A DNA stretch of 64,000 bases from Pelagicoccus sp. SDUM812005 (lineage in GTDB: Bacteria > Verrucomicrobiota > Verrucomicrobiia > Opitutales > Opitutaceae): NCBI RefSeq assembly GCF_031127875.1, contig NZ_JARXIA010000001.1:682001-746000 (forward strand). Direction: 5' to 3'. Shown piece by piece: positions 44,645-64,000 of this stretch (position 1 is its first letter; the number at the start of each line of letters is the position of its first letter). A model generated the notes under the pieces. That model was not told the origin of the DNA, ran no database searches, and worked only from the letters and a program-made list of their open reading frames with translations. Made by a program: the position numbers and the translations under genes.

Positions 44645-44671
44645 CCTGGGAAGCATCTTGGTTCTTTACCG

Positions 44672-44707
44672 GCTACCGATGCGCGAAAGCGTATCGGTAG
44701 CTTTTTG
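44672..44707 (+). terminator. Terminator after TonB receptor 1
   Basis: A 13-bp stem with one G-T pair and a GAAA tetraloop (arm GCTACCGATGCGC), then five T. It separates the two receptors' transcripts. Confidence 0.85.
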
Positions 44708-44916
44708 CTTTGTTTGAGCGGTTCGTTTGCTGGCAGGAACGCCGGTGGATTCCGAGGGAGTTCGCTAGTTACCACACAAAATAGGGGTGTTAAATGACTG
44801 GATTATCTGGTAAACTTAAGGCGGTTCAGGCGTCGTACCCTAGATTGGCGATGAACTAGAGCACGGGCGGTCGCAGGCGCGGCTGGTCGGTTCATGCTTA
44901 AACTACAACCCTAATA

Positions 44917-47778: not shown

Positions 47779-47807
47779 TTAGAATATAGTATAAGTTTAA
47801 TTGGAGT

Positions 47808-47848
47808 GGTCTCCGAGGTGGCAGAAAACCGCTTCGGAGACCTTGTTG
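47808..47848 (+). terminator. Hairpin after TonB receptor 2
   Basis: A 14-bp stem with two G-T pairs (arm GGTCTCCGAGGTGG), loop CAGAAAA, followed by a weak TTGTTGT tail, 30 nt after the stop. Confidence 0.6.
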
Positions 47849-47982
47849 TAGAAAATGAAAATAAAGAAAGGGCTGACTGATTAAGTATGTGAACGATTGA
47901 GAGTATTTGCACTTTGATTTTTTGTGTGGAATGCGAAGCGCGTGAGTTCGCTCGATTTTGTTTGGGTTAGTAATACGTTTAT

Positions 47983-49758
47983 ATGAAAAACTATTTATAT
48001 GCTATTGGTCTTGGAGTGATTGTTTGTGTGTGTTCGCTCCAAGCGAAGAAAGAGCAGGAGATGGATGCCCTTTGGGGTGAGACTACCGTTAAGCTCAGGG
48101 CAGAGAATGCCGAGCGGGGCGAACTCTTCGATGAAGGGAACTATGCGATGTTCATCCACTGGGGGCTCTATTCCCAGTTGGCGAACAAGGTCGACGGGAA
48201 GACTTACTACGGAATCGGCGAATGGATAATGGACCCGAAAATGGCCGGTATCCCGGTCGACGAGTACAAGGAACTGGCTGGGACTTTCAATCCGGTCGAT
48301 TTCGACGCTCGGGCCATCGCTGCCTTGGCTAAGGAAGCCGGGATGAAGTACATCGTGATCACTGCGAAGCATCACGACGGGTTCGCCATGTACGATACGG
48401 CGGTGGACGATTTTAATATCGTGGATGCCACGCCCTGGGGGAAGGATCCGATGATGGAGCTCTCGGAGGCTTGTCGCGAGGCGGGCTTGGGGTTCGGCTT
48501 CTACTATTCCCATAGTCAGGACTGGACCTTTCCGGGCGGCCGCAAGGGGCCTGAGTTCGACGCGAACGGAAAGCCTGCTTCCTTCGATGACTATTTCTAT
48601 AAAAAGTGTCTTCCGCAGGTGGAGGAGTTGACCACGCTCTATGGTCCGATCGAACTGATCTGGTTCGATACTCCCGGCGGCATGAAGAAGTCCTATGTGC
48701 AGCAGCTGGTTGACGTTGTGCGCAAGAACCAGCCTCGGGCCCTCGTTTCCGGACGTGCGGGCCACGACCTCGGAGACTACCGTACCTTGGGCGATATGGA
48801 AGTACCGCACCACAATGTGGAAGGCATGTGGGAAAGCGTGGATACGACCAACGATTCCTGGGCCTATGCCTGGTACGACGAGAACTGGAAGTCGCCCGCT
48901 AAGATCTTGAATCGCCTGGTAGCCTGCGTCGGGCGCGGCGGCACATACATGTTGAACGTAGGCCCTGACGCCAAAGGGGTGGTGCCGGAGAGGGCTGCCC
49001 GCTCCCTGAGGCGAGCTGGCGAGTGGATTCGTCGCTATCCGCAAGTGGTTTACGGCACTGATTCCTCGCCTTGGGGGCACGCCTTGCCCTGGGGGGACGT
49101 TACGGTGAAAGGCAATCGCCTGTTCTTGTCGGTCTTCGATTGGCCGCAAAACGGCAGGCTTTACGTTCCGGGATTGAAAACGGAGATCGAGTCTGCCCGT
49201 TTGCTGATGGGGAAAGAGAGCGAAACGCTCGGCTTCAAGCGCAAGAAAGGTTGGACGGTGCTGGACCTGCCGGCTCGCCCTCCCGAAGAATTGGCTTCGG
49301 TGATCGAGATCGAGTTAGTGGATACGCCGGAGGTGGATCAAACCTTTGGTATTGATCCGAGCCAAGGTACCGAGATTTTGGCGGAGTTCGCGACGGCGAC
49401 TGGCGCTAAGATCGTCAAGCATCGCTGGATGGAGAAGTTTGGCGAATGGATCTGCGTCTATCCCGCTCGCCAGTGGACGTCGGAAGGAAAGGTTGTCTGG
49501 GAGGTCGAGGTTTTGCGTCCCGGAGACTATAGCGTAAGCCTGAGCTACGCGGGCGAGGGTCGATTGGTTTGGGGCGTGGAAGTCGTAGGCGGCGAGCGTA
49601 TCCAGAATCAGCAGAACTCATCGCACAACTATCAGGAGTTTCCGATTGGCTGGCTCAATTTTCCGGAAGCGGGTCGGTATCAAGTTGCCGTTTCCTGCCT
49701 TGAGGGGAATCTGGATTCGGCGAGCTTGAAGTCCATTCGCATCGCCCCTGCGATGTAG
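47983..49758 (+). CDS. Alpha-L-fucosidase, GH29 (first)
   Basis: 591-aa exported GH29 enzyme that removes alpha-L-fucose. A short signal peptide (about 20 residues) is followed by the catalytic barrel with MFIHWGLYS, the substrate-binding KHHDGF (129-134), and the nucleophile Asp229 in ELIWFDTPGG. The C-terminal 150 residues form a beta-sandwich. GH29 retains configuration and uses this Asp. It heads a seven-gene operon with two sulfatases, so sulfated fucose polymers are the probable substrate. It resembles the second GH29 at 53043 (both have WFDTP) more than the third. Confidence 0.95.
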   Translation: MKNYLYAIGLGVIVCVCSLQAKKEQEMDALWGETTVKLRAENAERGELFDEGNYAMFIHWGLYSQLANKVDGKTYYGIGEWIMDPKMAGIPVDEYKELAGTFNPVDFDARAIAALAKEAGMKYIVITAKHHDGFAMYDTAVDDFNIVDATPWGKDPMMELSEACREAGLGFGFYYSHSQDWTFPGGRKGPEFDANGKPASFDDYFYKKCLPQVEELTTLYGPIELIWFDTPGGMKKSYVQQLVDVVRKNQPRALVSGRAGHDLGDYRTLGDMEVPHHNVEGMWESVDTTNDSWAYAWYDENWKSPAKILNRLVACVGRGGTYMLNVGPDAKGVVPERAARSLRRAGEWIRRYPQVVYGTDSSPWGHALPWGDVTVKGNRLFLSVFDWPQNGRLYVPGLKTEIESARLLMGKESETLGFKRKKGWTVLDLPARPPEELASVIEIELVDTPEVDQTFGIDPSQGTEILAEFATATGAKIVKHRWMEKFGEWICVYPARQWTSEGKVVWEVEVLRPGDYSVSLSYAGEGRLVWGVEVVGGERIQNQQNSSHNYQEFPIGWLNFPEAGRYQVAVSCLEGNLDSASLKSIRIAPAM

Positions 49759-49785
49759 GGCATTCCCGCTGTTGCGAGTGATTTG

Positions 49786-51471
49786 ATGACCTGTACCGAA
49801 CAAAGCAATACAAGGATAGCTTCCTTGCAGAAGCTGTTCCCTTGGCTGCCGGCTACGCTTGAAGAGCGTTTTCGGGAGGCGTTGCCGCGCAGGAGGGGAG
49901 CGGTTGTTGGGTTGCGAAGGGGAATCGTCGTGGCAGCGCTTTGTGCTCAGGGTATTTTGGCGAGTGCCGCGCTTGCGGGGGAGAATTGGCCGCAAGCTGC
50001 GGGCCCGAACTTCGGCTGGAAGGTGGCGGGCACGGCGGCTACGGAATGGAGCGTGGTTGAGGATCGAAATATCAAGTGGCGCTCCACCTTGCCGGAAGGT
50101 GGTCAGAGTTCGGTAACGGTTTGGGGAGATCGCCTGTTTTTGACGAGTTACAAGCCCTTGGAGTCGGCGGCGGAAGCGGCGAGCAGTACGGATTTGTTGG
50201 CCTATTGCCTGGACGCGAAGGACGGGTCGGTTTTGTGGACGGCGGAATTGCCGGGGTCCGTCGCGGTAGGGGTAGCGGGGATCTTTAGCGACGCCAGCGT
50301 ATTTGCTCCAGTTACGGATGGACGTTACGTGTGGTTCTTCAACCGCAGCGGCTCGATGGCTTGCTACGATTGGGAGGGCAAGCGCGTATGGAATCGTGAA
50401 TACGTTCCTCGCAATCGTCATACCAACCGGCAAGCGGAGCCGATACTCTTGAACGGCCAGCTGCTGGTGGTCGAAGTGAGAGACAAGGAGGCAGCCCGGA
50501 AGCTGCAGCGCCACCAGCCGGTGCCGGAGGACGTGAATGCGCGTTCGGTTTGGACCTACGTGCATGGCTACGATGCGTATTCGGGTGAATTGCTTTGGAC
50601 CGAATCGACGGGGACGGTGGTGCATAACTGTCCCAGCGTCGGCAGGCTCGCGAACGGAGAATGGGCGGTCCTGCACGCTCGGGGAGGGCCCCACCACGCT
50701 TTGGAAACGCCTTACGGCTTGAGCTTGAGCAGCTTATCGCGTGGGCGGGAAGGGGAGCCTTTGTGGTCGACTGAGATCCAGGATGTGAATCCGATGATGG
50801 TAAACGTTTGGGATGAGCAGGGCGTTTACGCCTTCGCGGGCGAAGATCATGTTATTTTGGATACGGAGACAGGGAGGCTGCGTTCGCAGCGATCCTTGCG
50901 GCGCGAAGTGGATCGATGGCGCTACGATGCGGAGGCAGGCGATTGGGTCTTTCAGGCGGGAGTCGACCTCGAGGGCAAGAAGCCGCGCTTGAACACTTAT
51001 GCGACCAATATCGTGGTGGGGGATTGGCATTACTTCCTCGCCCACGAGACGAATGCGATTGGTCGCGTGGATCTAAGGAACGAGCGGGTCGAGTATTTGG
51101 ACCTGCCGTATCAGCTATCGGTGGAAGCGGACGGAAGCCGCCAGCTCATCTGGGATTTGCGGCAGGCTATTCCTTCCGTGCCTCGAAACTCCCGTGGCAT
51201 CGAATTGCTCTCGGACCAGCGATCGCGGGGAACCGGTTGGGGACACGTTTCGGCCGCCAGTCCGATCCTGGTGGGGCGATACCTGTATTTTCCCATGATG
51301 TCGGGAACGGTCTACGTGATCGATACCCAGGCGCCTAACTTTAACGCGAACGCGATTGTCGCGATCAACGACCTAGGGCCAGCCGGCGAGACATGGAGCC
51401 TCAGCTCCCTGAGCTACGCGAGTGGCCGCTTGTACGCGCGTACCTTGAAGGAAGTTGTCTGTATAGAATGA
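49786..51471 (+). CDS. PQQ-type beta-propeller protein
   Basis: 561-aa protein with repeated propeller blades of the PQQ-binding-like type, seen in segments such as LLAYCLDAKDGSVLWTAELP, SMACYDWEGKRVWNREYV and DAYSGELLWTES. A hydrophobic segment near residue 50-65 (GIVVAALCAQGILASAALA) could be a signal peptide behind a long N-terminal tail. The ATG at 49786 follows a TTG. I see no dehydrogenase active site, so the domain may be structural or bind the polymer. It lies between GH29 and sulfatase genes (gaps of 27 and 25 nt), so it belongs to the operon. Its role in fucan breakdown is not known to me. Confidence 0.82.
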   Translation: MTCTEQSNTRIASLQKLFPWLPATLEERFREALPRRRGAVVGLRRGIVVAALCAQGILASAALAGENWPQAAGPNFGWKVAGTAATEWSVVEDRNIKWRSTLPEGGQSSVTVWGDRLFLTSYKPLESAAEAASSTDLLAYCLDAKDGSVLWTAELPGSVAVGVAGIFSDASVFAPVTDGRYVWFFNRSGSMACYDWEGKRVWNREYVPRNRHTNRQAEPILLNGQLLVVEVRDKEAARKLQRHQPVPEDVNARSVWTYVHGYDAYSGELLWTESTGTVVHNCPSVGRLANGEWAVLHARGGPHHALETPYGLSLSSLSRGREGEPLWSTEIQDVNPMMVNVWDEQGVYAFAGEDHVILDTETGRLRSQRSLRREVDRWRYDAEAGDWVFQAGVDLEGKKPRLNTYATNIVVGDWHYFLAHETNAIGRVDLRNERVEYLDLPYQLSVEADGSRQLIWDLRQAIPSVPRNSRGIELLSDQRSRGTGWGHVSAASPILVGRYLYFPMMSGTVYVIDTQAPNFNANAIVAINDLGPAGETWSLSSLSYASGRLYARTLKEVVCIE

Positions 51472-51496
51472 ATACGTTTATAGAGGAGAAAATGTC

Positions 51497-53014
51497 ATGA
51501 AAATGTTTAGCGTTTATAAACGCGTTTCGAAACGCTTAGCCCCTCGGACGTTGGTCCTGGCGTTGGTATCCATCGGGCTCGCTTGCGGTTCTGGCGCGGC
51601 AGCGGAAGAGCTGGTCGGACGCCGGCCGAATATCGTTTTGGTGATGACCGATGACCAAGGGATGGGCGACCTATCCTGCATGGGAAACCAGGTCGTCCGC
51701 ACGCCGCATATCGACCGCTTCTACGAGCAGTCGACGCGCTTTACGGACTTCCACGTGAGCCCGACCTGCGCCCCGACGCGAGCGGCCATGATGAGCGGTC
51801 GCGTTCCTTTTAAGAATGGCGTGACCCATACTATCTTCCAGCGCGAGCGCATGGCGTTGGATACGTTTACCTTTCCGCAGGCCTTGCAGTCGGCCGGCTA
51901 CGCGACCGGGATTTTTGGCAAGTGGCACCTGGGGGACGAGGAGGAGTACCTCCCCGGCGCCCGCGGTTTTGACGAGGTGCTCATCCACGGGGCGGGAGGA
52001 ATCGGGCAGACCCGCTACGGGGACTTTCCGCCGAACGAAGAGAATCCCTACTTCGACAACATCCTGCTGCACAACGATACCATCGTGGAGACTAAGGGAT
52101 TTTGCACTGACCTCTTCTTCCAGTCCGGGCTGGCTTGGATCAAGCGGCAGCGCGAAGCGAGCCAGCCTTATTTCGCCTATATTTCCCTCAATGCTCCGCA
52201 CGGTCCGCTGATCGCTCCGGAGTCCTACAAGAAGCGCTTCCTGGAGCTCGGTTACGACGACGGTACGGCGGGACGCTATGGCATGGTCGAGAACATCGAC
52301 GACAACTTTGGGCGCCTGATAGGGAAGCTGGAAGCGTGGGGAGCCCTGGAGGATACCTTGGTCATCTTCATGACGGACAATGGAGCCACCCACCTGAAGG
52401 GGGAGTTGAATGGAGAGCGGATCACGCACTTCAACGCGAACTTGAGCGGCGGCAAAAACTCGCCTTTCGAGGGCGGGACGCACGTGCCGGCCTTTTGGCG
52501 CTGGCAAGGCGTATTGGGGGAAGGCGTCGATATCGATGCCCTGGCTGCCCACATCGACTTGTATCGCACCTTCTGCGAGCTGGCCGGAGCCAAGCTTCCT
52601 GCAAAGATGCAGGAGCTGGACGGCCGTTCCTTGCTGCCGCTGCTGGAGGACACCGAGGCGGACTGGCCGGATCGGAAGCTGTTCGTGCATTGCGGCCGCT
52701 GGAATCCCGGTGGGATCGAGGATGCGAAGTTTAAGAAGGTTGCGGTGCGGACGGATCGCTGGCGCTTCGTGAACAACCAGATGCTTTTCGACATTTCGAA
52801 GGATCCGTCTGAAGAGAACGACGTGTCGGCCCAGTACCCGGAAGTGGTGGCGGAGCTCAGGAGGGCCTACGACCAGTGGTGGGCGTCAGTGGTGCCTATG
52901 ATGGTGAACGAAGGTTTGCCCAAGGTCTCGCCCGAGGACCAGCCGCTGGCGATTCGATACTACGAGCAACTGAAGACGCGAGGGATACCGGAGTGGGCCC
53001 CCGAGGAACTATAA
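51497..53014 (+). CDS. S1-type sulfatase (first)
   Basis: 505-aa exported sulfatase. Signal region in the first 35 residues; metal ligands Asp52-Asp53 in MTDDQG; formylglycine motif Cys91 in CAPTRAAMMSGR, which must be oxidised by a maturation enzyme not encoded here; the GKWHLGD and FMTDNG segments supply the remaining catalytic residues. It would cut sulfate esters from fucose. The start is preceded by a good Shine-Dalgarno (GAGGAG). It is 25 nt after the propeller gene and 28 nt before the second GH29. Confidence 0.94.
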   Translation: MKMFSVYKRVSKRLAPRTLVLALVSIGLACGSGAAAEELVGRRPNIVLVMTDDQGMGDLSCMGNQVVRTPHIDRFYEQSTRFTDFHVSPTCAPTRAAMMSGRVPFKNGVTHTIFQRERMALDTFTFPQALQSAGYATGIFGKWHLGDEEEYLPGARGFDEVLIHGAGGIGQTRYGDFPPNEENPYFDNILLHNDTIVETKGFCTDLFFQSGLAWIKRQREASQPYFAYISLNAPHGPLIAPESYKKRFLELGYDDGTAGRYGMVENIDDNFGRLIGKLEAWGALEDTLVIFMTDNGATHLKGELNGERITHFNANLSGGKNSPFEGGTHVPAFWRWQGVLGEGVDIDALAAHIDLYRTFCELAGAKLPAKMQELDGRSLLPLLEDTEADWPDRKLFVHCGRWNPGGIEDAKFKKVAVRTDRWRFVNNQMLFDISKDPSEENDVSAQYPEVVAELRRAYDQWWASVVPMMVNEGLPKVSPEDQPLAIRYYEQLKTRGIPEWAPEEL

Positions 53015-53042
53015 CCTGTTAACGAAACGATACCGATAACCT

Positions 53043-54497
53043 ATGAAGACAAGCTTACTACCCTTGCTGGCCTTTTCGGCGAGCGCCTTGAATTGTTTTG
53101 CGAATACGACAGCGGAAGAGCCGCCCGACGAGCCAGTGGACGATCGCAGCTTCGAATACCGATTCGACGACAGCTTGCGCCAGACTCCAGATTCCATCGC
53201 CCGCCAGGAGAAGTGGTTTCGCGACGCGAAGTTCGGAGCCTTCATCCACTTTGGCGTCTATTCGACCTTGGAAGGTGAATACAAGGGACGCGGTTCGGAG
53301 CACCGCTACGGCGAGTGGATACAGATCTCCGGAAAGATTCCTGCGACGGAGTATCGAGAGATCGCCTCCCAGTTCAATCCCTCCGAGTTCGACGCGGAGG
53401 AGTGGGCGAAGACCTTCAAGGAATGCGGTATCCGTTATGTGGTGATCACGTCCAAGCACCACGACGGATTCGCTCTCTTCGACTCGGACGTCAGCGACTA
53501 CAACATCGCCGACTACACGCCTTTTAAGCGCGACCTTATCAAGGAGCTCAGCGAAGCCTGCCATCGCCACGGCCTCAAGTTCGGCGTCTACTATTCGCAG
53601 GCCCAGGATTGGGACGAGCCGGATGCGCCGCTCATCATTCCCAGCAAGGAGAAGTTTCGCTGGGACGTGCATCCCGACCTGCCGAAGGACTACGAGCCGG
53701 ATATGGATGCCTACATCTTCAAGAAGAGCCTGCCTCAGGTCGAGGAGCTGATGAAGAATTACGAGATCGATCTGATCTGGTTCGACACGCCTGCCGGCAT
53801 GAACATGGAACGGGTGAAGCTCTTCAGCGACATGGTGCGCAAGTACCGGCCGGATTGCTTGATCAACTCGCGCATCATCCACAAGGGAAAGGGCAAGATC
53901 GAGGCCCAGTACTTGCCGTACTACGACTACGTTTCGATCGGCGACAAGGAGGTTCCGACCAAGAAGCTCCCGCTCTACGTCGAGTCGCCCGACAGCGTGA
54001 GCTCCTCCTTTGGATACAAGACCAAGGGCAAGCACTACTACCACTCGGAGGAGGAGATGCTGCACCGTTTCATAAATACGGTCTGCGCCGGCGGAAACGC
54101 CTTGATCAACAATGGGCCGATGGGCAACGGGAAGCTGGACCCGGAGGCCGTGCGCATCTATCGCTCCATGGGCGAATGGTTGGAGGAAAACGGGGAGGCG
54201 ATCTACGGCTGCGTGCGCAATCCCTTGGCGGATCGCCCGGAGTGGGGCGACCTTTCCGCGAGCAAGGACCGCAAGACGCTCTACTTGCACGTTTTCGATT
54301 GGCCCGAGTCCGGCAGCCTCGCGTTGGGCGGGCTCACGGAGTCGGTCAAGTCCGCCTCCTTACTGGCCAACGGCAAGAAGGTGAAGTTCTCCCAGTCGGG
54401 CCAGACCCTATCCCTCTCTTTGCCAGGCAAGCCGCTCGACGAGCGGGCCACGGTGGTGAAGGTGACCCTAAAAAAGCCCATCGAAGAGAAAAATTGA
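53043..54497 (+). CDS. Alpha-L-fucosidase, GH29 (second)
   Basis: 484-aa exported GH29 enzyme with signal peptide (about 20 residues), FIHFGVYS, KHHDGF (138-143) and nucleophile Asp248 in LIWFDTPAG. It has no large additional domain; the length is close to the minimal GH29 barrel with a short C-terminal sandwich. It groups with the first GH29 by sequence around the nucleophile. It probably acts on a different linkage or sulfation state than the other two. It lies between the sulfatase and the third GH29 gene. Confidence 0.94.
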   Translation: MKTSLLPLLAFSASALNCFANTTAEEPPDEPVDDRSFEYRFDDSLRQTPDSIARQEKWFRDAKFGAFIHFGVYSTLEGEYKGRGSEHRYGEWIQISGKIPATEYREIASQFNPSEFDAEEWAKTFKECGIRYVVITSKHHDGFALFDSDVSDYNIADYTPFKRDLIKELSEACHRHGLKFGVYYSQAQDWDEPDAPLIIPSKEKFRWDVHPDLPKDYEPDMDAYIFKKSLPQVEELMKNYEIDLIWFDTPAGMNMERVKLFSDMVRKYRPDCLINSRIIHKGKGKIEAQYLPYYDYVSIGDKEVPTKKLPLYVESPDSVSSSFGYKTKGKHYYHSEEEMLHRFINTVCAGGNALINNGPMGNGKLDPEAVRIYRSMGEWLEENGEAIYGCVRNPLADRPEWGDLSASKDRKTLYLHVFDWPESGSLALGGLTESVKSASLLANGKKVKFSQSGQTLSLSLPGKPLDERATVVKVTLKKPIEEKN

Positions 54498-54550
54498 TCA
54501 AATAGAGGGTATTCGCCCGCGTTTCTTTGGTCCATAATGACGGAAACCCA

Positions 54551-56392
54551 ATGTGTATCCCCATGATGTTTAGAAGTATCCCTAGCTCTCTTGCGGTCCT
54601 TCTCGCTCTGTTCCTTGGCCTAGCCGAGGCGAGCGCGAACAAGTCTCCGATCGAACAGCGGCCCGATAGCTGCGTACTGATGCCTGTCGACGAGGCCTCG
54701 GTTGCCAAAGGCAAACGCCAGTGGAGTTTCGACTTGTCCCATCCAGGCAACTACGTGGTCGAGTTGGTGCTCCCGCTGGAGCAGGCTTACGAGAAGCAGC
54801 TGGCGGCGGTTTCGATCGACGGCGTGTCGCTGAAGGGTGGCTTGGAAAAGTCCTATATCATTGAGGACGGCCTGGTTTCGGGCTTCGTGACTCCGGCCAA
54901 GATCGAGAAGGCGGGTAGGCATACCCTTACGCTGGATACGGACTTGCAGGTTCGCCAAGTGCGCTTGGTACCGGAGGGCTACGTCAAGAGCCGCATCTAC
55001 ATCGCTTCCGAAAAGTACTACGAGCCCTGGCTCGAGATGCACCAGTCGGCGCCCAAGGTGGCAGCCATGGAGTGGTACAAGAACGCTCGCTTCGGCATGT
55101 TCATCCACTGGGGCGCCTACTCGATGGCGGCTGGAAGCTGGAAAGGGGTGAAGATCGAAGATTCGCCCATCTCCGGTCCGAGAGTAGCGGAATGGTTGAT
55201 GTTTACCTTCAACATTTCCCGCGAGGAGTACCGCGAGTACGCCAAGCGCTTCAATCCCGACTCCTCCTTCGCCGAGAACTTCGCAAGCCTGGCCAAGGAA
55301 ACCGGCATGCGCTACATGGTCATCACCTCGAAGCATCACGATGGCTTCGCCCTGTTCGATTCAGCGTATTCAGATTTCGATATCGCCGACCATACCGCCT
55401 ACGACGGAGACCTGATCAAGGAACTCTACGACGCCTGCCGGGCGAAAGGGATCGACTTCGGGGTCTACTATTCCCACGGCAACGATTGGATGGACGGCGG
55501 CGACGGAAACTACGCGAACGTCAAGGCCCGCAACGACGTCTACGGCGTCTATACGCGCCCCAACGGGAAGAACCTGTGGGATCCGAGCCCGAATTCCCAT
55601 GCCGCCTATCTCGAGGAGAAGGCCTACCCGCAAGTGGCCGAGCTCATCAAGCTCCTGCCGGACCTTCGCTTGATCTGGTTCGATGGGGACGGGCTCATCA
55701 CCGAGGAGCAATCCTTCCGCTTCTACAAGATGGTTTACGACCTGAACCCGAATATCGTGGTGAATCGAAGAATTGGATACAATTTCGGAGATTACGTGGA
55801 CGCGGGCGATAACAAGACTCCGACCGAGAGCGAGTTGGCGGCGAAGCACTTCGAAACCTGCGGCACCGCAAACCACTCCTGGGGATTCAAGGCGCACGAC
55901 CATGATTGGCACAGTTCGAACGAGCTGCTGCGCAAGTTTGTCGATATCGTATCCAAGGGCGGAAACTACCTGCTTAATATTGGCCCGGAGGAATCGGGCA
56001 AGGTACCGGAGCCCTGCGTGGATGGATTTCGCGAAATGGGCAAATGGGTGAAGACTAATTCCGAGGCGATTTTTGGCACCCGCCGTTGGACGAAGTTCAA
56101 CGAGAACGTTCAGCCTTCGGTGCGGGGGCGCGGCAAGCAGCCCGTGTCCAATGGCAAGGAATTCTGGTTCAGCGCCAAGGGAGACGCAGTCTACGCCATG
56201 AGCCTGGCCGACCCGGGCGACAAGGCCCGTATCCAATCTTTGGGCGCGGAAGCGGGCAAGGTCACGAGCGTCCGTTTGCTGGGTAGCGAGCGCGAGCTGA
56301 AGTGGAAGCAGTCGGACAAGGCCTTGGAAGTCGATCTCAGTGGAATTGAGATCGGTCCCAACGGCTATGCGCTCAAAGTCATCCTTAAGTAG
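54551..56392 (+). CDS. Alpha-L-fucosidase, GH29 (third), with N-terminal module
   Basis: 613-aa exported GH29 enzyme. After the signal peptide comes a beta-sandwich module of about 110 residues (about 45-145), unlike the other two. The GH29 barrel follows, with MFIHWGAYS, KHHDGF (261-266) and nucleophile Asp378 in LIWFDGDGL. The different nucleophile region and added module place it in another subgroup than the first two. Three ATG codons are possible starts near 54551-54566; the first has a weak upstream GGA. It is followed 5 nt later by the esterase gene. Confidence 0.93.
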   Translation: MCIPMMFRSIPSSLAVLLALFLGLAEASANKSPIEQRPDSCVLMPVDEASVAKGKRQWSFDLSHPGNYVVELVLPLEQAYEKQLAAVSIDGVSLKGGLEKSYIIEDGLVSGFVTPAKIEKAGRHTLTLDTDLQVRQVRLVPEGYVKSRIYIASEKYYEPWLEMHQSAPKVAAMEWYKNARFGMFIHWGAYSMAAGSWKGVKIEDSPISGPRVAEWLMFTFNISREEYREYAKRFNPDSSFAENFASLAKETGMRYMVITSKHHDGFALFDSAYSDFDIADHTAYDGDLIKELYDACRAKGIDFGVYYSHGNDWMDGGDGNYANVKARNDVYGVYTRPNGKNLWDPSPNSHAAYLEEKAYPQVAELIKLLPDLRLIWFDGDGLITEEQSFRFYKMVYDLNPNIVVNRRIGYNFGDYVDAGDNKTPTESELAAKHFETCGTANHSWGFKAHDHDWHSSNELLRKFVDIVSKGGNYLLNIGPEESGKVPEPCVDGFREMGKWVKTNSEAIFGTRRWTKFNENVQPSVRGRGKQPVSNGKEFWFSAKGDAVYAMSLADPGDKARIQSLGAEAGKVTSVRLLGSERELKWKQSDKALEVDLSGIEIGPNGYALKVILK

Positions 56393-56397
56393 TTGTC

Positions 56398-57612
56398 ATG
56401 AAAGCCACTTGTTTCGTGCTGCGATTCCTCGTTTCGCTCTGCTTTGCCCAAGGCGCTTTTTCCCTTGAAGATGCAGCCGAGCTGCGGGAAAGGGTGCTGG
56501 CTTTAGGGGAGCTAAGGCAAGCGCCCGCCACGATGCCGGCGGAGGGATTCGAGACCTCGGAGGGCATTTCCCCGATCTTTATCGATACCTTGGACTACGA
56601 AGGAAAGCCGAGCAAGGTCTTCGCTTGGCTCGGTATTCCGCAAGGACGCTCGGGCAAGGTTCCGGGAATCGTTCTGGTCCACGGCGGCGGCGGTACCGCC
56701 TTTCGTGAGTGGGTCAAGAAGTGGAACGATCACGGATTCGCGGCGGTCGCCTTCGCTCACGAAGGCCAGGTCGAGCGGCGCGACGAAAACCGCAAATGGG
56801 AAAAGCACGCCTGGGCGGGACCGTGGCGCCGCGGGCACTACAAGGACGTCGACAAGCCCTTGCAGGACCAATGGATGTACCACGCGGTTGCGGATACGGT
56901 TCTGGCCAACTCCTTGCTGCGTTCCTTGCCGGAAGTCGATGCGGACCGGATCGGCGTGATGGGCGTTTCCTGGGGCGGCGTCATCACCAGTACGGTGATG
57001 GGCATCGACGATCGTTTTGCCTTCGCAATTCCCACCTACGGCTGCGGGATGATGGCCGATGTGGACAACCACTGGGGCCAGGCTTTGGGCGACAATGAAT
57101 TTTATCGCGAAGTCTGGGATCCGTTGCACTACCTGCCGCGGGCCAAGATGCCGACGCTCTGGTTCTCCTGGCCGAACGACAAGCATTTCCCGCTCGATAG
57201 CCAGGCGGCGAGCTACCAGGCCATGGCGGGGCCCTACATGGTGTCCCTGCTGCCGGGTATGAAGCACAGCACCTCCGCGTCTTACAATCCTCCCGACAGC
57301 TACGCCTTCGCCAAGAGCGTGGTAAGCTCCGGCAAGCCCTGGTGCATGCAAGTGGGCGAGCAGGTGGAGGGGCAAGATTGGGAAGTGGTCTTCGACTCGT
57401 CCAAAGCGCTCGACCGAGCCGTGTTGATTTGGACCAAGGACCGCGGCTACCCGGGGGACCGCCACTGGGAAGAGTCGGCCGCTGAATTGCAGCGACGCGA
57501 CGGTAAGTGGGTCGTGAGCGCTCGAGTGCCGAAGGGCGCTACGGGATGCTTCGTCAACCTTAACTCCGGCGAGCTCACAGCCAGCTCCAATTTCCGAAAC
57601 TTAGAAAACTAG
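56398..57612 (+). CDS. Secreted alpha/beta hydrolase (acetyl esterase-like)
   Basis: 404-aa exported hydrolase: signal peptide (about 22 residues), oxyanion segment HGGGG (95-99), nucleophile Ser191 in GVSWGG, with Asp and His candidates in the NDKHFPLDS and GMKHS regions. It resembles acetyl-xylan-esterase-like proteins and the C-terminal domain may bind carbohydrate. Fucoidan is often acetylated, so removal of acetyl groups ahead of the GH29 enzymes is the likely role in this operon. The gaps on both sides are 5 and 7 nt. Confidence 0.88.
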
Positions 57613-57619
57613 AACGACT

Positions 57620-59470
57620 ATGAAGAGAACGGTATTGAAATTTATACTACCTGTCCTGCTGGCCTGCGCGACGGGCCTTGCGATTACGCAAGCGGCCCCG
57701 CGGCAGAGCGAGAAACCAAACGTCATCATCGTCATCACCGACGACCAAGGCTACGGCGATCTCGGCTTCACCGGAAACCCTGCCATCAAGACGCCTAACA
57801 TCGACCGGCTGCGTTCGGAAGGTACCTTGCTCGACAACTTCCACGTCGACCCCACCTGCGCTCCCACTCGTGCCGCGTTGATGACCGGACGTTATTCGAA
57901 CCGCGTCGGGGTCTGGCACACCGTGCAAGGCCGCAGCATGCTGCGTCGCCGCGAGGTAACCATGCCCGAGATCTTCGGTCAAAATGGGTACGCTACCGGC
58001 ATGTTCGGCAAGTGGCACCTCGGCGACTGTTATCCCTACCGTCCCGAGGATCGCGGATTCCAGCACACCGTCTACCACCAGGCCGGCGGCGTGGGGCAGG
58101 CTCCCGACTACTGGGGCAACGACTACTTCGACGACACCTATGTCGTGAACGGCGAACTCAAGCGCATCGAAGGCTTCTGCACCGATGTCTGGTTCGAAGA
58201 GGGAATGAAGTTCATCAAGGAAAACAAGGATAAGCCATTCCTTGCCTACATCGCCCCCAATGCTCCGCACAAGCCCTTGTATTGCCCGACCGAATACAGC
58301 GATCCTTACGAAGGCGATCCTCGCGTTTCCCATCCCGAGTTCTACGGCATGGTGACCAATATCGACGACAACATGGCCAAGCTGATGGACATGCTGGAGA
58401 AGGAAGGCATCGCGGACAATACCATCCTCGTATTCATGACGGACAACGGAACCGCTGCGGGCCTGGAAGGCGACCGCGGCTACGACGGAAACATGCGCGG
58501 CCAAAAGAATTCGGAATACGACGGCGGCCATCGCGTTCCCTTCATCATCCGTTGGCCAAACGGCAAGATCGAAGCTGGCAAGACCATCAAGAACTTGACT
58601 GCCCACATCGACGTCCTGCCCACCTTTATCGAGCTTTGCGACTTGGAAGCGCCCGATATCGACTTCGACGGCAGCGACATCAGGGACCTGCTTTACACGG
58701 ACGGAGAAAACTGGCCGGACCGTTCGTTGATCGTCGAGAGCCAGCGCGTGGTGGACCCGATCAAGTGGCGCAAGAGCGCGGTCATGACCGACAAGTGGCG
58801 CTTGGTGAACGGAACGGAGCTGTACAACATTCTAAACGACCCCAAGCAGACGACCGATCTGGCGCCTCAGTATCCAGAGTTGGTCGAACGCCTACGGGCC
58901 GAGTACGACGTTTTTTGGAATGACGTTTCCCGCGAGCACGACCTGACCAGTTACATGGTGATCGGGTCGGACCATTCTCCCATCGTTTCGCTTTCCTCGC
59001 ACGACTGGCTGATCGATATGCTGCCGCCATGGAACCAGGATCACATCAAGAACGGCGACGTCGCGGAAGTTTCGCACTGGGCGATCGAAGTAGAACGGGC
59101 TGGTGTATACGAAATTTCACTACGACGCTGGCCGGTCGAAACCGACAAGGCGATCAACGACGGCACCTACGGCAAGGCTTACAATTACCAGCAAGCTCGC
59201 CTGCGTATCGGCGATATCGATGAAACGAAGGACATCCCGGAAGGCGCTAAGGAAGTAACGTTCCGGGTGCGGTTGGAGAAGGGCATTACCAAGCTGGCCC
59301 CGACTTTTATCAGTCCGGAACTCACCGCGACGCCGTACTATGCCTACGTGACCCATAAGCCGAAGCGCGGTTGGCAAACGCCAGCGGGAATGGGAATCCC
59401 AGTTTACGATCCGAGCTACGGTCGCGTGCCGCCTCAAATCAACAAGAAGAAGCTGAAGGCCATCGAGTAG
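57620..59470 (+). CDS. S1-type sulfatase (second)
   Basis: 616-aa exported sulfatase with a signal peptide of about 25 residues, metal ligands Asp41-Asp42 in ITDDQG, formylglycine motif Cys80 in [19 protein letters not shown] and FMTDNGT. Compared with the first sulfatase it has about 110 further C-terminal residues that form a beta-rich domain (from about 490). The different C-terminus suggests another sulfation position or substrate length. It is the last gene of the operon before a strong terminator. Confidence 0.94.
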
Positions 59471-59505: not shown

Positions 59506-59547
59506 AACTGGCAGCGAAGACCTCAGGTCGGCGCTGCCAGTTTTTTT
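59506..59547 (+). terminator. Rho-independent terminator of the fucosidase-sulfatase operon
   Basis: An 11-bp perfect stem (AACTGGCAGCG) with an inner short stem (GACC/GGTC) and seven T at the end, 36 nt after the second sulfatase. Confidence 0.92.
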
Positions 59548-59742: not shown

Positions 59743-62700
59743 ATGAATAGAAAAGGCGTTTTGTTGGGCGCTGCGATGACGCTCTGGTGTAGCGTCGGAT
59801 ACGCGGCTCACTTCGGAAGTACAGGTTCGGCTGGCGCGACTCATCCGAGTCCTCTGGCAGACCTTCGGTTGAGTTTTCTCGACCACTGGCAAGAGAAGAA
59901 CGCGGCCTTCGAGCGGTGGACCTCTTCGGTGAGGACCCGCATGCAGGAATCGAGCAGAACCATTCTGCTTTGGGACGCCTGGCAAGGCGCGTCCGCCCAA
60001 AGGCCGACCTTCCGTTGGGGGGCTAACGGCGTAGCGACCGCCGGCTCCGGCGTTCAGGTGGACCGGCGCTACGAGCGCAGCCACGGACGCCGTAGCTTCT
60101 TCAGCTTCTTGCGGCGGCTGTTTGGCGATAGCTATCTGCGGAACGAAGCGAACGAAACCTTCTTCGTCGATTTTACGGTAACGGCTCAGGGGCCGCGTAC
60201 GGAACTGCGTTCGTTCGATTTCAGCGTATCCGCCAACAATCCCGCTGCCCAACGCTTCTGGACCTTGTCGGTCGAATCGGGAGATCTCACGCTGGGGACC
60301 GTGGCGCGCGGCGAGGTCGTGGGCGGGGCCGGTTGGGAAAACGTATCCGTCGACCTCAGCCAGCTTGCCGACAAGGATTTGGGCAAGGGCGGTTCGGCTA
60401 CCTTTCGCCTTTCCTGGTGGGGCGGTACCACTTCGGAAACCGAGGGCGACAGCACCGGTATCGACAAGGTTTCGATAAGCGCGGTCATGCCTGCGGAGGA
60501 GCAGGTTATTCTTGGCTTAGGCGAACGAGCGAACTGGCTTCGCGGTTCGTGGGGCTTGAATTGGAAGCCGACGCGTCGACAGAACGGGTTGAGCGAGAGC
60601 TTGGTCATCGATGACTTTCTCGAGCAAATCCGCGGGCTGCGCACGATCGACTACATCCAGACTCACCTGAACGAATCTTCCGTCTATTCGCCGGCCCATA
60701 TGGCTCCGAATCCCTTGCTGGAAAGCTTCTGGGAGGGAGACCTTGATGGAAACGGATTGCCGATCAACCTCGTGGTGCCGCGGGAGGAGATCGGTTTCGA
60801 CCCGTACCTGAAGCAGCTGGAAGCCGTGCGGGATGCGGGGATGAGAAACCAAGTTTACGTGAACAGCTACAATATGCTGGCCCGCTCTGGCTCGAATCCA
60901 GGAGTGTTCCCGGAAATCACGGAGCGTTGGAAGGAATGGTGCGATACCAATCCGGCGGCCCAGGCCTTTATCGACAGCAAGCTTTACCACCGAGGCGTGT
61001 GGAACGCGGAGACGGGGCAGTATGAAATCGCATACAACGCAGACGGGACCGAAATGTATCCGGAGCGCAAGTACATGTTTTGCTATGCGGAATTCGTGCT
61101 GAGGGCTTATTCCATTCAGTATGGCGAGCTAATCGATGGTTGGCTGTTCGATTCGGGACGTGCGATGTATACCAATGGCGATGTCGCTACCGAAGGGAAC
61201 GTGGAGGATCAGCGCCTCTACGAAGCCTTCGCCCTTGCTTGTCGCGCGGGGAACGCCAACGCCGCCGTATCCTTCAACAACAGTCCGGAGCGCGATACGG
61301 AGGAGCTGAACCCATTCTCCGAAGCGACTCGCTTCGACGACTACATGTTCGGTCACCCGTACAATGGAGGGAAGACGATCGGGCGTCATGACAATGGCCT
61401 CTACGATCGCAACTACGCCCATATCCAAAAGATCACCGAGACCAACGGCAACGTGCACTCCGGCATCGATCCGCAAACCTGGACTTGGGACGACAAGGTC
61501 GTAGGGCACTTCGATCCGCCCATGAGTACGGCCGCCTGGAACGCCGGCAACAACCCGGGGCTGACCGATGAGGAGTTTCTCCTCTGGAACCGCGAGGCGA
61601 TGATCGGCGGGGGCGCGATCTCTTGGGGCGCTCCCTTGGTTGCGGACGACAGCACGGCTCCAGGGGCGCTGTTGCTCCGTCCTTGGGCCTTGGCTCAGTT
61701 GACCCTGATGGACGATCACCTGCAGGAGGTTCAGTCTCCCGATGAAGTGAACTGGTCGCGAGTCTTCACGGTTCTTCCCGTGGCGAGAGCGGGGCAAGCC
61801 TACTATCATGAGCTCGTCGAAGGAGTCGACTTCTGGGATCCGCAAGGGAGCCCGATCGAAAGCCTCTCAGTTGAGGATGCGAAGAACTTCCCAGCGTGGC
61901 TCAGTCTTGAAAAATCAACTACAGAAGAAGGCGTCTGGATCTTGAGCGGGATTCCTACTGCTTCCAGCTCGAAGCAGTACTCCTTTACCCTGCGAGCCGA
62001 GAACGAACGCTCCGGATCGCGGGAGATCGAACTGCAAGTCGATGCGACTCCCTTGGATTTCGTACCGGGAGCTCCCGGTTTTCCTGTCTGGTCGAGCGAT
62101 CGGATCACGCTCGAAGATTTGGAAGTGCCCGGCGCGATCGAGACCTTCCTGATCCAAGGCATCGACTTCCATGACTTCGAGGGCGATTCCCTTGTCTTGG
62201 AAAAGGTGAGCGGTCCGGACTGGTTGAGTCTGGAGCCGTTCAGCACCGGCATTTGGCGCTTGAGCGGCGTCCCGACTGCGGCCAACTACGGCCGAAACGA
62301 GGTCGTGCTCACTGTTAGCGACGGTGTTAACAGCGCCTCTGTGACCTTGGTTGCGTTTGTTGTGCCCGCCTTGAGGGATGTGGATGTATTTGCGTCTCCA
62401 AATACCGACTACGGTCTGGACGAAGTTGCGACCTTGGTCTCCGATACGCTTACGGCTTACGATGGGATCGCGACTTTCAAGATTGCGTTCGACGTCGTTC
62501 CGCAAGTGGGAACTTCGATCAAGAGCGGCAGCAGCGGCGGTTCTACCTCTGCGACAAGTTGGGGCGTAGGAGCCGATGCGATCTTCAGGGGAAGCGATGG
62601 AGAAGCGATCGATGGCGTTGGCAATCTGCGCGTGATCGACTTCCAGGCCAATGGAGGCTCGTTGACGAGCGCCGATGTCTTGGACTTGTCTTTTAAGTCG

Positions 62701-62919
62701 GTCGAGATCGCCAATGGTCAAAGCGGAGGAAAGGATAATATCGCGGTAAGCGTCGCGGGAGATGTCTACGCGTTGGGATCCTTGGGAACGAATCCGGATG
62801 AAATCGATCTCGAGGCGGTGGCCGGAACGGAGCTTGTTTCCGACTTCTCGCTGTTGACCAATTCCTCGGCGACGACCAATAAGTGGTCGGTGAACAGCGT
62901 CTCCGTTTCCTTCCGCTAG
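59743..62919 (+). CDS. Large secreted multidomain protein, putative unassigned glycoside hydrolase
   Basis: 1058-aa exported protein that I cannot assign to a known family. Signal peptide about 1-21; a beta-sandwich module at about 90-250 (SFDFSVSANN...VSVDLSQL); a probable alpha/beta barrel at about 255-690 with acidic clusters such as ELIDGWLFDSG (462-472) and ATRFDDYMFGHP; then two immunoglobulin/cadherin-like repeats (about 690-790 and 795-905, each with FxDxxGD/WLSLE...LSGVPT phrases) and a C-terminal beta-rich domain. The Asp in WLFD recalls a retaining-hydrolase nucleophile. It follows the fucosidase operon as a separate unit and may be the endo-acting enzyme the locus otherwise lacks. 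GH107- or GH168-type fucanase relatives are possibilities. Confidence 0.75.
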   Translation: MNRKGVLLGAAMTLWCSVGYAAHFGSTGSAGATHPSPLADLRLSFLDHWQEKNAAFERWTSSVRTRMQESSRTILLWDAWQGASAQRPTFRWGANGVATAGSGVQVDRRYERSHGRRSFFSFLRRLFGDSYLRNEANETFFVDFTVTAQGPRTELRSFDFSVSANNPAAQRFWTLSVESGDLTLGTVARGEVVGGAGWENVSVDLSQLADKDLGKGGSATFRLSWWGGTTSETEGDSTGIDKVSISAVMPAEEQVILGLGERANWLRGSWGLNWKPTRRQNGLSESLVIDDFLEQIRGLRTIDYIQTHLNESSVYSPAHMAPNPLLESFWEGDLDGNGLPINLVVPREEIGFDPYLKQLEAVRDAGMRNQVYVNSYNMLARSGSNPGVFPEITERWKEWCDTNPAAQAFIDSKLYHRGVWNAETGQYEIAYNADGTEMYPERKYMFCYAEFVLRAYSIQYGELIDGWLFDSGRAMYTNGDVATEGNVEDQRLYEAFALACRAGNANAAVSFNNSPERDTEELNPFSEATRFDDYMFGHPYNGGKTIGRHDNGLYDRNYAHIQKITETNGNVHSGIDPQTWTWDDKVVGHFDPPMSTAAWNAGNNPGLTDEEFLLWNREAMIGGGAISWGAPLVADDSTAPGALLLRPWALAQLTLMDDHLQEVQSPDEVNWSRVFTVLPVARAGQAYYHELVEGVDFWDPQGSPIESLSVEDAKNFPAWLSLEKSTTEEGVWILSGIPTASSSKQYSFTLRAENERSGSREIELQVDATPLDFVPGAPGFPVWSSDRITLEDLEVPGAIETFLIQGIDFHDFEGDSLVLEKVSGPDWLSLEPFSTGIWRLSGVPTAANYGRNEVVLTVSDGVNSASVTLVAFVVPALRDVDVFASPNTDYGLDEVATLVSDTLTAYDGIATFKIAFDVVPQVGTSIKSGSSGGSTSATSWGVGADAIFRGSDGEAIDGVGNLRVIDFQANGGSLTSADVLDLSFKSVEIANGQSGGKDNIAVSVAGDVYALGSLGTNPDEIDLEAVAGTELVSDFSLLTNSSATTNKWSVNSVSVSFR

Positions 62920-63475
62920 GGGCCAAGTCGCGAATTCGGATCTTTAAATTGCAAACCTGCCCTCGGATTTTGGGGGCAGGTTTTTTGTATCCAGCGATTA
63001 CTACTCAAATTGAGGGTAACTTCCGGCTCGGAACTTTGGTAATATGCATGCGAGGGAATTCTCGATCATGAACTCCATCCCCTTGGATGCCCCCTGTTAG
63101 ATGATCGAAACGAAACCAGCACTTTGCGGGAGCGAGTCCGAACTCGATTTTGTCCTTTCCTTAGGAATTGCGTCTTTTGGAGGTTGCTCTCGCAAGTGCT
63201 GCTAACGGGACGGCCTTTTGTAGGAAACGCCCATCCTTGCCTAGCGGCGGCGAAGGAGATTCGCTTTCGCTACTGAAAAGAGGGGTACTTGCCAGAGCGC
63301 GTTTCGCGTAGGATGGCTGCTTCACGATTCCGCCGGAATCTTTCCCCGAAACCCCATGCATGTTGGTTGGCGCGCGAGACTAGGTTGCTCGCGAAGCGCA
63401 AGCTGGCACGCTCTGGAATTTAGGCAACGGCTGCCTAGATGGCGATGGAAAGACCACGAGAGGATTCCTATTGCT
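62920..63475. other. Intergenic region with no credible gene
   Basis: A terminator lies at the beginning. The remaining 490 nt contain only a poor 66-codon open frame on the minus strand (63161-63361) without support. Inverted segments CCAGAGCG (63292-63299) and CGCTCTGG (63409-63416) and a small hairpin (CGCGAG/CTCGCG, 63373-63393) are visible but short. It probably holds the promoter of the next gene. Confidence 0.6.
62953..62986 (+). terminator. Rho-independent terminator after the 1058-aa protein gene
   Basis: A 10-bp stem (AAACCTGCCC / GGGCAGGTTT) with an 11-nt loop and six T, 34 nt after the stop. Confidence 0.9.
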
Positions 63476-64000
63476 ATGATTAAACAAATGATACGGTTGC
63501 AGCGTTGTTTGAGGTATGTCGGCGCCTTGGCGTTGGCTTTTTCGTTGATGGGTTCCGCATTCGCGGCCCGAGTTGCGGCGGACTTTTATGTGTCGCCGCA
63601 GGGATCGGATGCCTGGTCCGGCACCTTGGCTGAACCATCCGCCGATGGAAAGGACGGTCCTTTCGCCAGCTTGCAGCGAGCGCGCGACGCGGTGAGGGAG
63701 TTGAAGCGGAGCAAGCCTACGGATATCGTCGTCTACGTGCGGGGCGGAACCTACCCCCTCGATGAGACGCTTGTGTTTGGCCTGGAGGATTCGGGCCTCG
63801 GAGATTCCACCATCAGCTACGCGGCCTATCCGGGCGAGACTCCGGTGATCAGTTCCGGGCGCGAGATAAAGGGCTGGCGCAAGGTGGAGCGGCCGCTGCC
63901 GGGCTTGCCGCAGGAGGCCCAGGGGAAGGTTTGGGAAGCGGAGGTATCGGGCAAGTTCCTCACTCTCTACGATGAGGAAGGCCTATTGCCTCGGGCTCGC
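63476..64000 (+). CDS. GH141-like parallel beta-helix protein, 5' part
   Basis: The first 175 codons of an exported protein that runs off the window. A signal peptide (about 1-32, ending GSAFAARVAA) is followed by DFYVSPQGSDAWSGTLAEP and GPFASLQRARDAVRELK, the N-terminal hallmark of right-handed parallel beta-helix glycoside hydrolases such as GH141. Then come VYVRGGTYPLDETLVFG and ISYAAYPGETPVIS. GH141 includes an alpha-L-fucosidase and members are common in verrucomicrobial fucan loci, which agrees with the neighbours. The catalytic residues lie outside the window, so family membership and activity are provisional. Confidence 0.8.
   Translation, partial: MIKQMIRLQRCLRYVGALALAFSLMGSAFAARVAADFYVSPQGSDAWSGTLAEPSADGKDGPFASLQRARDAVRELKRSKPTDIVVYVRGGTYPLDETLVFGLEDSGLGDSTISYAAYPGETPVISSGREIKGWRKVERPLPGLPQEAQGKVWEAEVSGKFLTLYDEEGLLPRAR

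Follow-up and report, generated by a model that had tools for sequence, protein, structure and literature searches.

A predicted GH107 endo-fucoidanase in a Pelagicoccus fucoidan locus and its C-terminal module

We analyzed an open reading frame near the end of a 64,000-nucleotide stretch of Pelagicoccus DNA (hereafter the window, G000:C31:682001-746000) and found that it very probably encodes a secreted endo-fucoidanase of family GH107. The frame occupies positions 59743..62919 of the + strand and runs from ATG to TAG over 1058 aa, the size given in an earlier note on this DNA. Judged by its relatives, the enzyme would cut internal alpha-L-fucosyl linkages, with the nucleophile role falling to Asp470 and the acid/base role to His538. 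Its C-terminal module (CTM) would be an accessory part. Fucoidan breaks down slowly and has been discussed as a store of carbon in the sea, and from the genes for its endo-cutters one can tell which bacteria are able to open it. The earlier note had read the protein as a possible novel endo-fucanase. At the level of sequence, GH107 homology and aligned catalytic residues support "endo-fucanase" well; "novel" falls away, as the protein belongs to one of the families that the note had itself named for checking. It is best described as a well-supported additional member predicted for GH107, of an enzyme kind already known.

A phmmer search against the PDB returned three matches, all annotated Alpha-1,4-endofucoidanase (6dlh, 6dms, and 6dns; E 1.2e-184, 1.5e-183, and 4.2e-168), with the best 6dlh stretch spanning residues 259-868. 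These are chains of MfFcnA (FcnA) from Mariniflexile fucanivorans, and this one search places in GH107 a protein that the earlier note could not fit to any family. The catalytic domain D1 (residues 258-668, 60514..61746, + strand) is identical to MfFcnA at 195 of 390 aligned residues (50%), and a profile built from seven D1 sequences matched the same three chains at E 3e-193 or better; the remaining two PDB matches of that profile (E up to 10) were to symerythrin, at E 0.2. The profile did not reach Mef1 and P5AFcnA, which are also solved GH107 enzymes; Mef1 is described as 17 to 51% identical to other GH107 members (PMC10619423). In a Foldseek search with the full-length model, 6dlh, 6dms, and 6dns ranked first among the 50 rows listed (best E 1.5e-53). 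Because that model is poor (mean pLDDT 57, too low for domain boundaries), we base the fold assignment on homology.

The catalytic part had looked unassigned because Pfam has no model for it, giving two He_PIG stretches as the sole matches in the protein, and NCBIfam gives no match at all. The missing models are what could be said for placing the protein in an endo-fucanase family of its own, without relation to those already known, an idea that we consider extremely improbable and reject given an E value of 1e-184 to a crystallized GH107 enzyme, the D1-profile matches to MfFcnA, and the alignment of both catalytic residues. The earlier note had also proposed comparison with GH29 and GH168. 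That comparison came out for GH107 alone: the D1 profile found no GH29 or GH168 chain in the PDB, and we rejected membership in either family. GH107 is reportedly similar to GH29 in structure and mechanism, to go by the title of a 2018 study by Vickers; the GH29 alpha-L-fucosidases of the window are three separate genes upstream.

The predicted nucleophile, Asp470 (61150..61152, + strand), aligns with MfFcnA Asp226 as tabulated in PMC10619423 and is Asp in 21/21 sequences of a D1 alignment composed of the window protein, MfFcnA, and 19 others. It is the last residue of the WLFD motif (residues 467-470) to which the earlier note had drawn attention, so the residue chosen there for mutation is the one that aligns with the GH107 catalytic nucleophile. 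The predicted acid/base, His538 (61354..61356, + strand), corresponds to MfFcnA His294 and is His in all 21 sequences; the 6dms mutant has Gln at this position. Tyr372, Asn374, Asn512, Pro592, and Trp599 likewise correspond to positions tabulated in PMC10619423, so that the Tyr, Asn, and Trp of the GH107 -1 subsite (Tyr372, Asn512, and Trp599) and the nearby Pro (Pro592) are all present. The positions of Tyr372 and Asn374 are invariant in the 21-sequence alignment, and Trp599 is invariant in a 7-row D1 alignment. The Asn512 position is Gln in 2/21 sequences, and the Pro592 position is Ser in the 6/21 that form a distant subgroup; the window protein is among neither set. The calcium ligands of MfFcnA, described in PMC11943901, are only partly kept, with Asp330 replaced by Ile575, Asn335 by Asp583, and Asp336 retained as Asp584.

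GH107 includes both alpha(1,4)- and alpha(1,3)-acting members (PMC11240576). Because the nearest relatives of the window protein are the alpha(1,4)-acting enzymes of the MfFcnA group, alpha(1,4) cleavage is the likelier prediction and alpha(1,3) cleavage the less likely one. The protein has a two-residue ST insertion before the -1 Trp, which the table in PMC10619423 gives as common to the alpha(1,4) enzymes MfFcnA, FFA2, Fhf1, and Fhf2 and missing in the alpha(1,3) enzymes Fda1, Fda2, and Mef2; in the same source, Mef1 is alpha(1,4)-acting yet without the insertion. An Asn at the Asn374 position separates alpha(1,4) from alpha(1,3) enzymes in a smaller set (PMC7698502). However, P5AFcnA has this Asn (PMC10619423) and cuts alpha(1,3) (PMC11240576), and alpha(1,4)-acting Mef1 lacks it, so the residue is not diagnostic for linkage. 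The markers conflict, which makes the linkage less certain than the family: the ST insertion favors the MfFcnA group, and Asn374 is shared with an alpha(1,3)-acting enzyme. A less likely alternative with some evidence behind it is that the enzyme cuts alpha(1,3) linkages instead of alpha(1,4) ones, or acts on a sulfation pattern not seen with MfFcnA: identity to MfFcnA over D1 is no more than 50%, the FFPKQ stretch close to the active site is FDPPM in the window protein, and both linkages and the shared Asn374 occur within the family. Against it stand the ST insertion and the D1 profile, which matches MfFcnA chains and no other solved GH107. We retain alpha(1,4) cleavage as the favored prediction.

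Secretion is suggested by a Sec-type signal peptide at residues 1-22 (59743..59808, + strand), recognized by eye only. Downstream of the gene lies an intrinsic-terminator-like hairpin (62953..62983, + strand; fold z -4.44), which bears out the earlier remark that the gene has its own terminator. A second terminator-like hairpin (59506..59542, + strand; -27.1 kcal/mol, z -4.83, followed by a T run) ends the upstream operon and is absent from the output of the consensus terminator scan. Since these hairpins lie before and after it, the fucoidanase gene looks like a separate transcription unit. A promoter scan returned one site compared to a mean of 2.4 in shuffled sequences, that is, fewer than shuffled.

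The N-terminal module (approximately residues 139-255, 60157..60507, + strand) was recognized from tblastn matches in L005, L009, and L019, and it is present in a 62%-identical paralogue and in two frames of >4,000 aa, one of 4,620 aa in the same genome and one of 4,024 aa in a congener. This recurrence suggests a genus-level secretion or adhesion domain. The beta-sandwich of the earlier note finds weak support in strands between residues 157 and 227, but pLDDT in that stretch is mostly <50. D1 is followed by two Ig-like (He_PIG) repeats (residues 669-875, 61747..62367, + strand), which Pfam reports and which align with the repeats of MfFcnA; the note's two Ig-like repeats were correctly seen. 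The CTM (residues 876-1058, 62368..62916, + strand) was defined by module alignments. The window protein thus shares D1, Ig-like repeats, and both catalytic residues with MfFcnA, but the Ig-like repeats number three in MfFcnA, which also has a T9SS sorting domain (PMC11943901, PMC7698502), whereas the window protein has two Ig-like stretches, an additional N-terminal module, and the CTM as its end. A 196-aa region of low similarity has been described in FcnA (PMC11943901) and is possibly the same module as the CTM; the solved chains end at 734 residues.

Upstream of the fucoidanase gene, a fucoidan-type locus (41696..59470, + strand; Pfam) contains two TonB-dependent receptors, three GH29, two sulfatases, a PQQ protein, and an AXE1-type esterase. 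Downstream, the start of a beta-helix protein (63356..64000, + strand), GH141-like by eye, is cut by the window end; Pfam gives no match on the part inside the window and Beta_helix on the whole frame (L012:3356-5674). The locus extends past the window with this protein, GH95, a GH141_M-bearing protein, and further fucosidase-like and sulfatase genes, and TonB plug proteins and two hybrid two-component regulators also lie there. In the scheme that we propose, the predicted (beta/alpha)8 domain would hydrolyze internal alpha-L-fucosyl linkages in sulfated fucan, with chemistry as in characterized relatives. To judge by the gene context, the TonB-dependent receptors would import the released oligosaccharides, and the neighboring esterase, sulfatases, and fucosidases would finish them. 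The CTM would act as an accessory domain of fucoidan loci. The AXE1-type esterase, two genes upstream of the fucoidanase gene (56398-57612), is a candidate fucoidan deacetylase. A GHL15 protein (L012:14839-16065; Pfam hypothetical glycosyl hydrolase family 15) also lies within the locus and is a possible uncharacterized fucoidan enzyme.

The earlier note had argued that the locus lacks an evident endo-acting enzyme, a slot that this protein would fill. This premise holds only inside the window, because three further GH107 genes lie on the same contig, 56-71 kb further on. The paralogue at 815931 is full-length and 62% identical, and those at 800923 (41%) and 805863 (43%) are more distant. One GH107 paralogue frame, L015:936-5753 (G000:C31 about 799936-804753), comprises 1606 aa and carries Ig and cadherin-like repeats, LamG, and thrombospondin type 3 repeats. 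Its C-terminal tail consists of hexapeptide repeats of the left-handed beta-helix type, which is unusual at the end of a secreted hydrolase.

Among 57 relatives' genomes (own included), none of the other 56 has a GH107-length match; five of these have short matches, of which that of G029 (78 residues, E 1e-4) falls in D1. Six of seven congeners are without a match, the seventh matches the N-terminal module only, and none has GH107; the fucoidanase is therefore not a core gene. A search of a plasmid collection gave no match. Across 387 genomes sampled from the phylum, with at most four candidates scored per genome, D1 was detected at E <= 0.001 in 37 and at <1e-80 in six (G000, G217, G419, G205, G272, and G292); matches in the other 31 were short, with a best E of 7.3e-9. 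Among 299 genomes of the Tamlana family, D1 was clear in G426 and weak elsewhere in two (2e-8 and 1.4e-4). Fucanases related to GH107 in the PVC superphylum are reportedly the subject of a 2024 study by Gonzalez, as its title indicates. GH107 has already been reported in Lentimonas CC10 and CC21 (PMC11068906), Pontiella (PMC7356697), and Verrucomicrobiae metagenomes (PMC7896085), and we liken these Verrucomicrobiota and PVC enzymes to the window protein by family as reported rather than by sequence. In Lentimonas isolates, much of the fucoidan gene set is described as lying on megaplasmids (PMC8857213).

The less known part of the protein is the CTM, a domain that looks undescribed and may help GH107 enzymes work on fucoidan. 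Pfam gives no match within residues 876-1058, and a 7-row CTM profile found no PDB sequence at E <= 10. When the CTM was modeled alone, the best of five models had pLDDT 80.4 and pTM 0.82 (the other four, pLDDT 51.5 to 67.7) and was all beta, so the beta-rich tail of the earlier note stands. None of the 1,044 Foldseek matches of this model reached E <= 0.001 (best 0.026). Among the 50 of these matches that were listed, 11 are named as binding modules or domains, which is no more than a hint. Compared with known carbohydrate-binding module families that have a solved structure, the CTM thus has neither a PDB sequence match nor a significant fold match. WfCBM47 and Fun174A-CBM are also non-catalytic modules on fucanases, and Fun174A-CBM is described as a beta-sandwich (PMC11943901); we compare the CTM with them by description only. 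The parts consulted of the literature on fucoidan, GH107, FcnA, and PEP-CTERM contained no description of the CTM.

We searched the open reading frames of the fetched loci with the CTM profile, dropping duplicates of places already counted (L012, L015, and L078), and obtained 27 aligned modules from eight genomes; two further copies, in G205 and G217, lie outside this 27-row alignment. Profiles of 17 close and nine divergent modules matched each other with an hhalign probability of 99.8%. The CTM is a discrete domain inside carbohydrate-active enzymes, with 15/27 modules in 12 GH107 frames and 2/27 on AXE1-type esterases. Three frames (L070:6288-9473, L072:3224-6751, and L073:28-3456, from G205, G272, and G292 of one genus) have D1 with a CTM copy on each side. 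The CTM-bearing esterases, L070:9505-12636 (G205) and L002:12197-14320, share 33% identity over 436 columns; the window esterase is without a CTM and is 47% identical to the former. In all, 12/27 modules are in 12 frames without D1. Besides the esterases, these include one frame with an unassigned N-part and He_PIG, two with cadherin-like repeats, and seven small frames (240-318 aa) with sorting-tail features, for which the Pfam cut-off was passed by PEP-CTERM in 2/7 and by a T9SS tail in 1/7, with 4/7 below it. Eight of the 12 carriers without D1 lie <=10 kb from a GH107 frame, two (G217) lie at 12 to 17 kb, and two (G272) are on another contig. One carrier, L071:13467-16247, has an N-part of ~500 residues without a Pfam match above the cut-off or a PDB sequence at E 0.01.

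The 7-row CTM profile, scored on at most eight candidates in each genome, had matches in 5/387 phylum genomes, all within the six with clear GH107, and the 27-row profile, under the same limit, found the same five. This confinement led us to reject the idea that the CTM is a general domain of PEP-CTERM proteins. In the Tamlana family, the CTM is present in 1/299 genomes, G426, the one with a clear D1; query sequences came from G426 and G000. The chance that five random genomes all fall within six of 387 is 8.5e-11, and by genus, as three of the genomes (G205, G272, and G292) belong to one, it is 3e-6 (three genera, all within four of 198). The co-occurrence is partly built in, because the module sits on the GH107 protein itself in G000, G205, G272, and G292; G217 is the independent case, as the CTM was detected there on separate proteins only. 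GH107 is also present without the CTM, in G419, in the four G217 GH107 frames examined, in one frame of Tamlana, and in the two distant paralogues on the window's contig. Seen only in GH107-bearing genomes among the samples scanned, the CTM could mark fucoidan loci.

Our best guess is that the CTM has an accessory role in fucoidan loci and may represent a new carbohydrate-binding family. It occurs in the same loci on a backbone cutter, on an acetyl-esterase-type protein, and on small secreted proteins, which points to attachment to a common substrate or a common partner. We propose only tentatively that the substrate is fucan, in which case the module could become a fucan probe. Equally tentative is the broader proposal that the CTM founds a carbohydrate-binding family dedicated to fucoidan, shuffled between two phyla onto either end of GH107, onto a fucoidan-locus esterase, and, alone, onto small cell-surface proteins that would hold the polysaccharide for the enzymes. 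We give somewhat more weight, approaching an even chance, to a CTM that does not bind fucan and has a part in docking, structure, or surface display. The small proteins with sorting-tail features, of which three pass the Pfam cut-off, make up seven of the 12 carriers that lack GH107. A version of FcnA lacking 229 residues is described as active and as degrading somewhat further than the less shortened FcnA2 (PMC6267234), which bears on the CTM only if the lost part is this module. The position of the module at either end of D1 and on AXE1-type esterases of the same loci, typical of binding modules, argues against a non-binding role. Every one of the 27 aligned modules is acidic (net charge -7 to -21), as might be expected of a domain that does not bind fucan, but charge does not decide the question, because D1, which must bind fucan, is likewise acidic (net -29).
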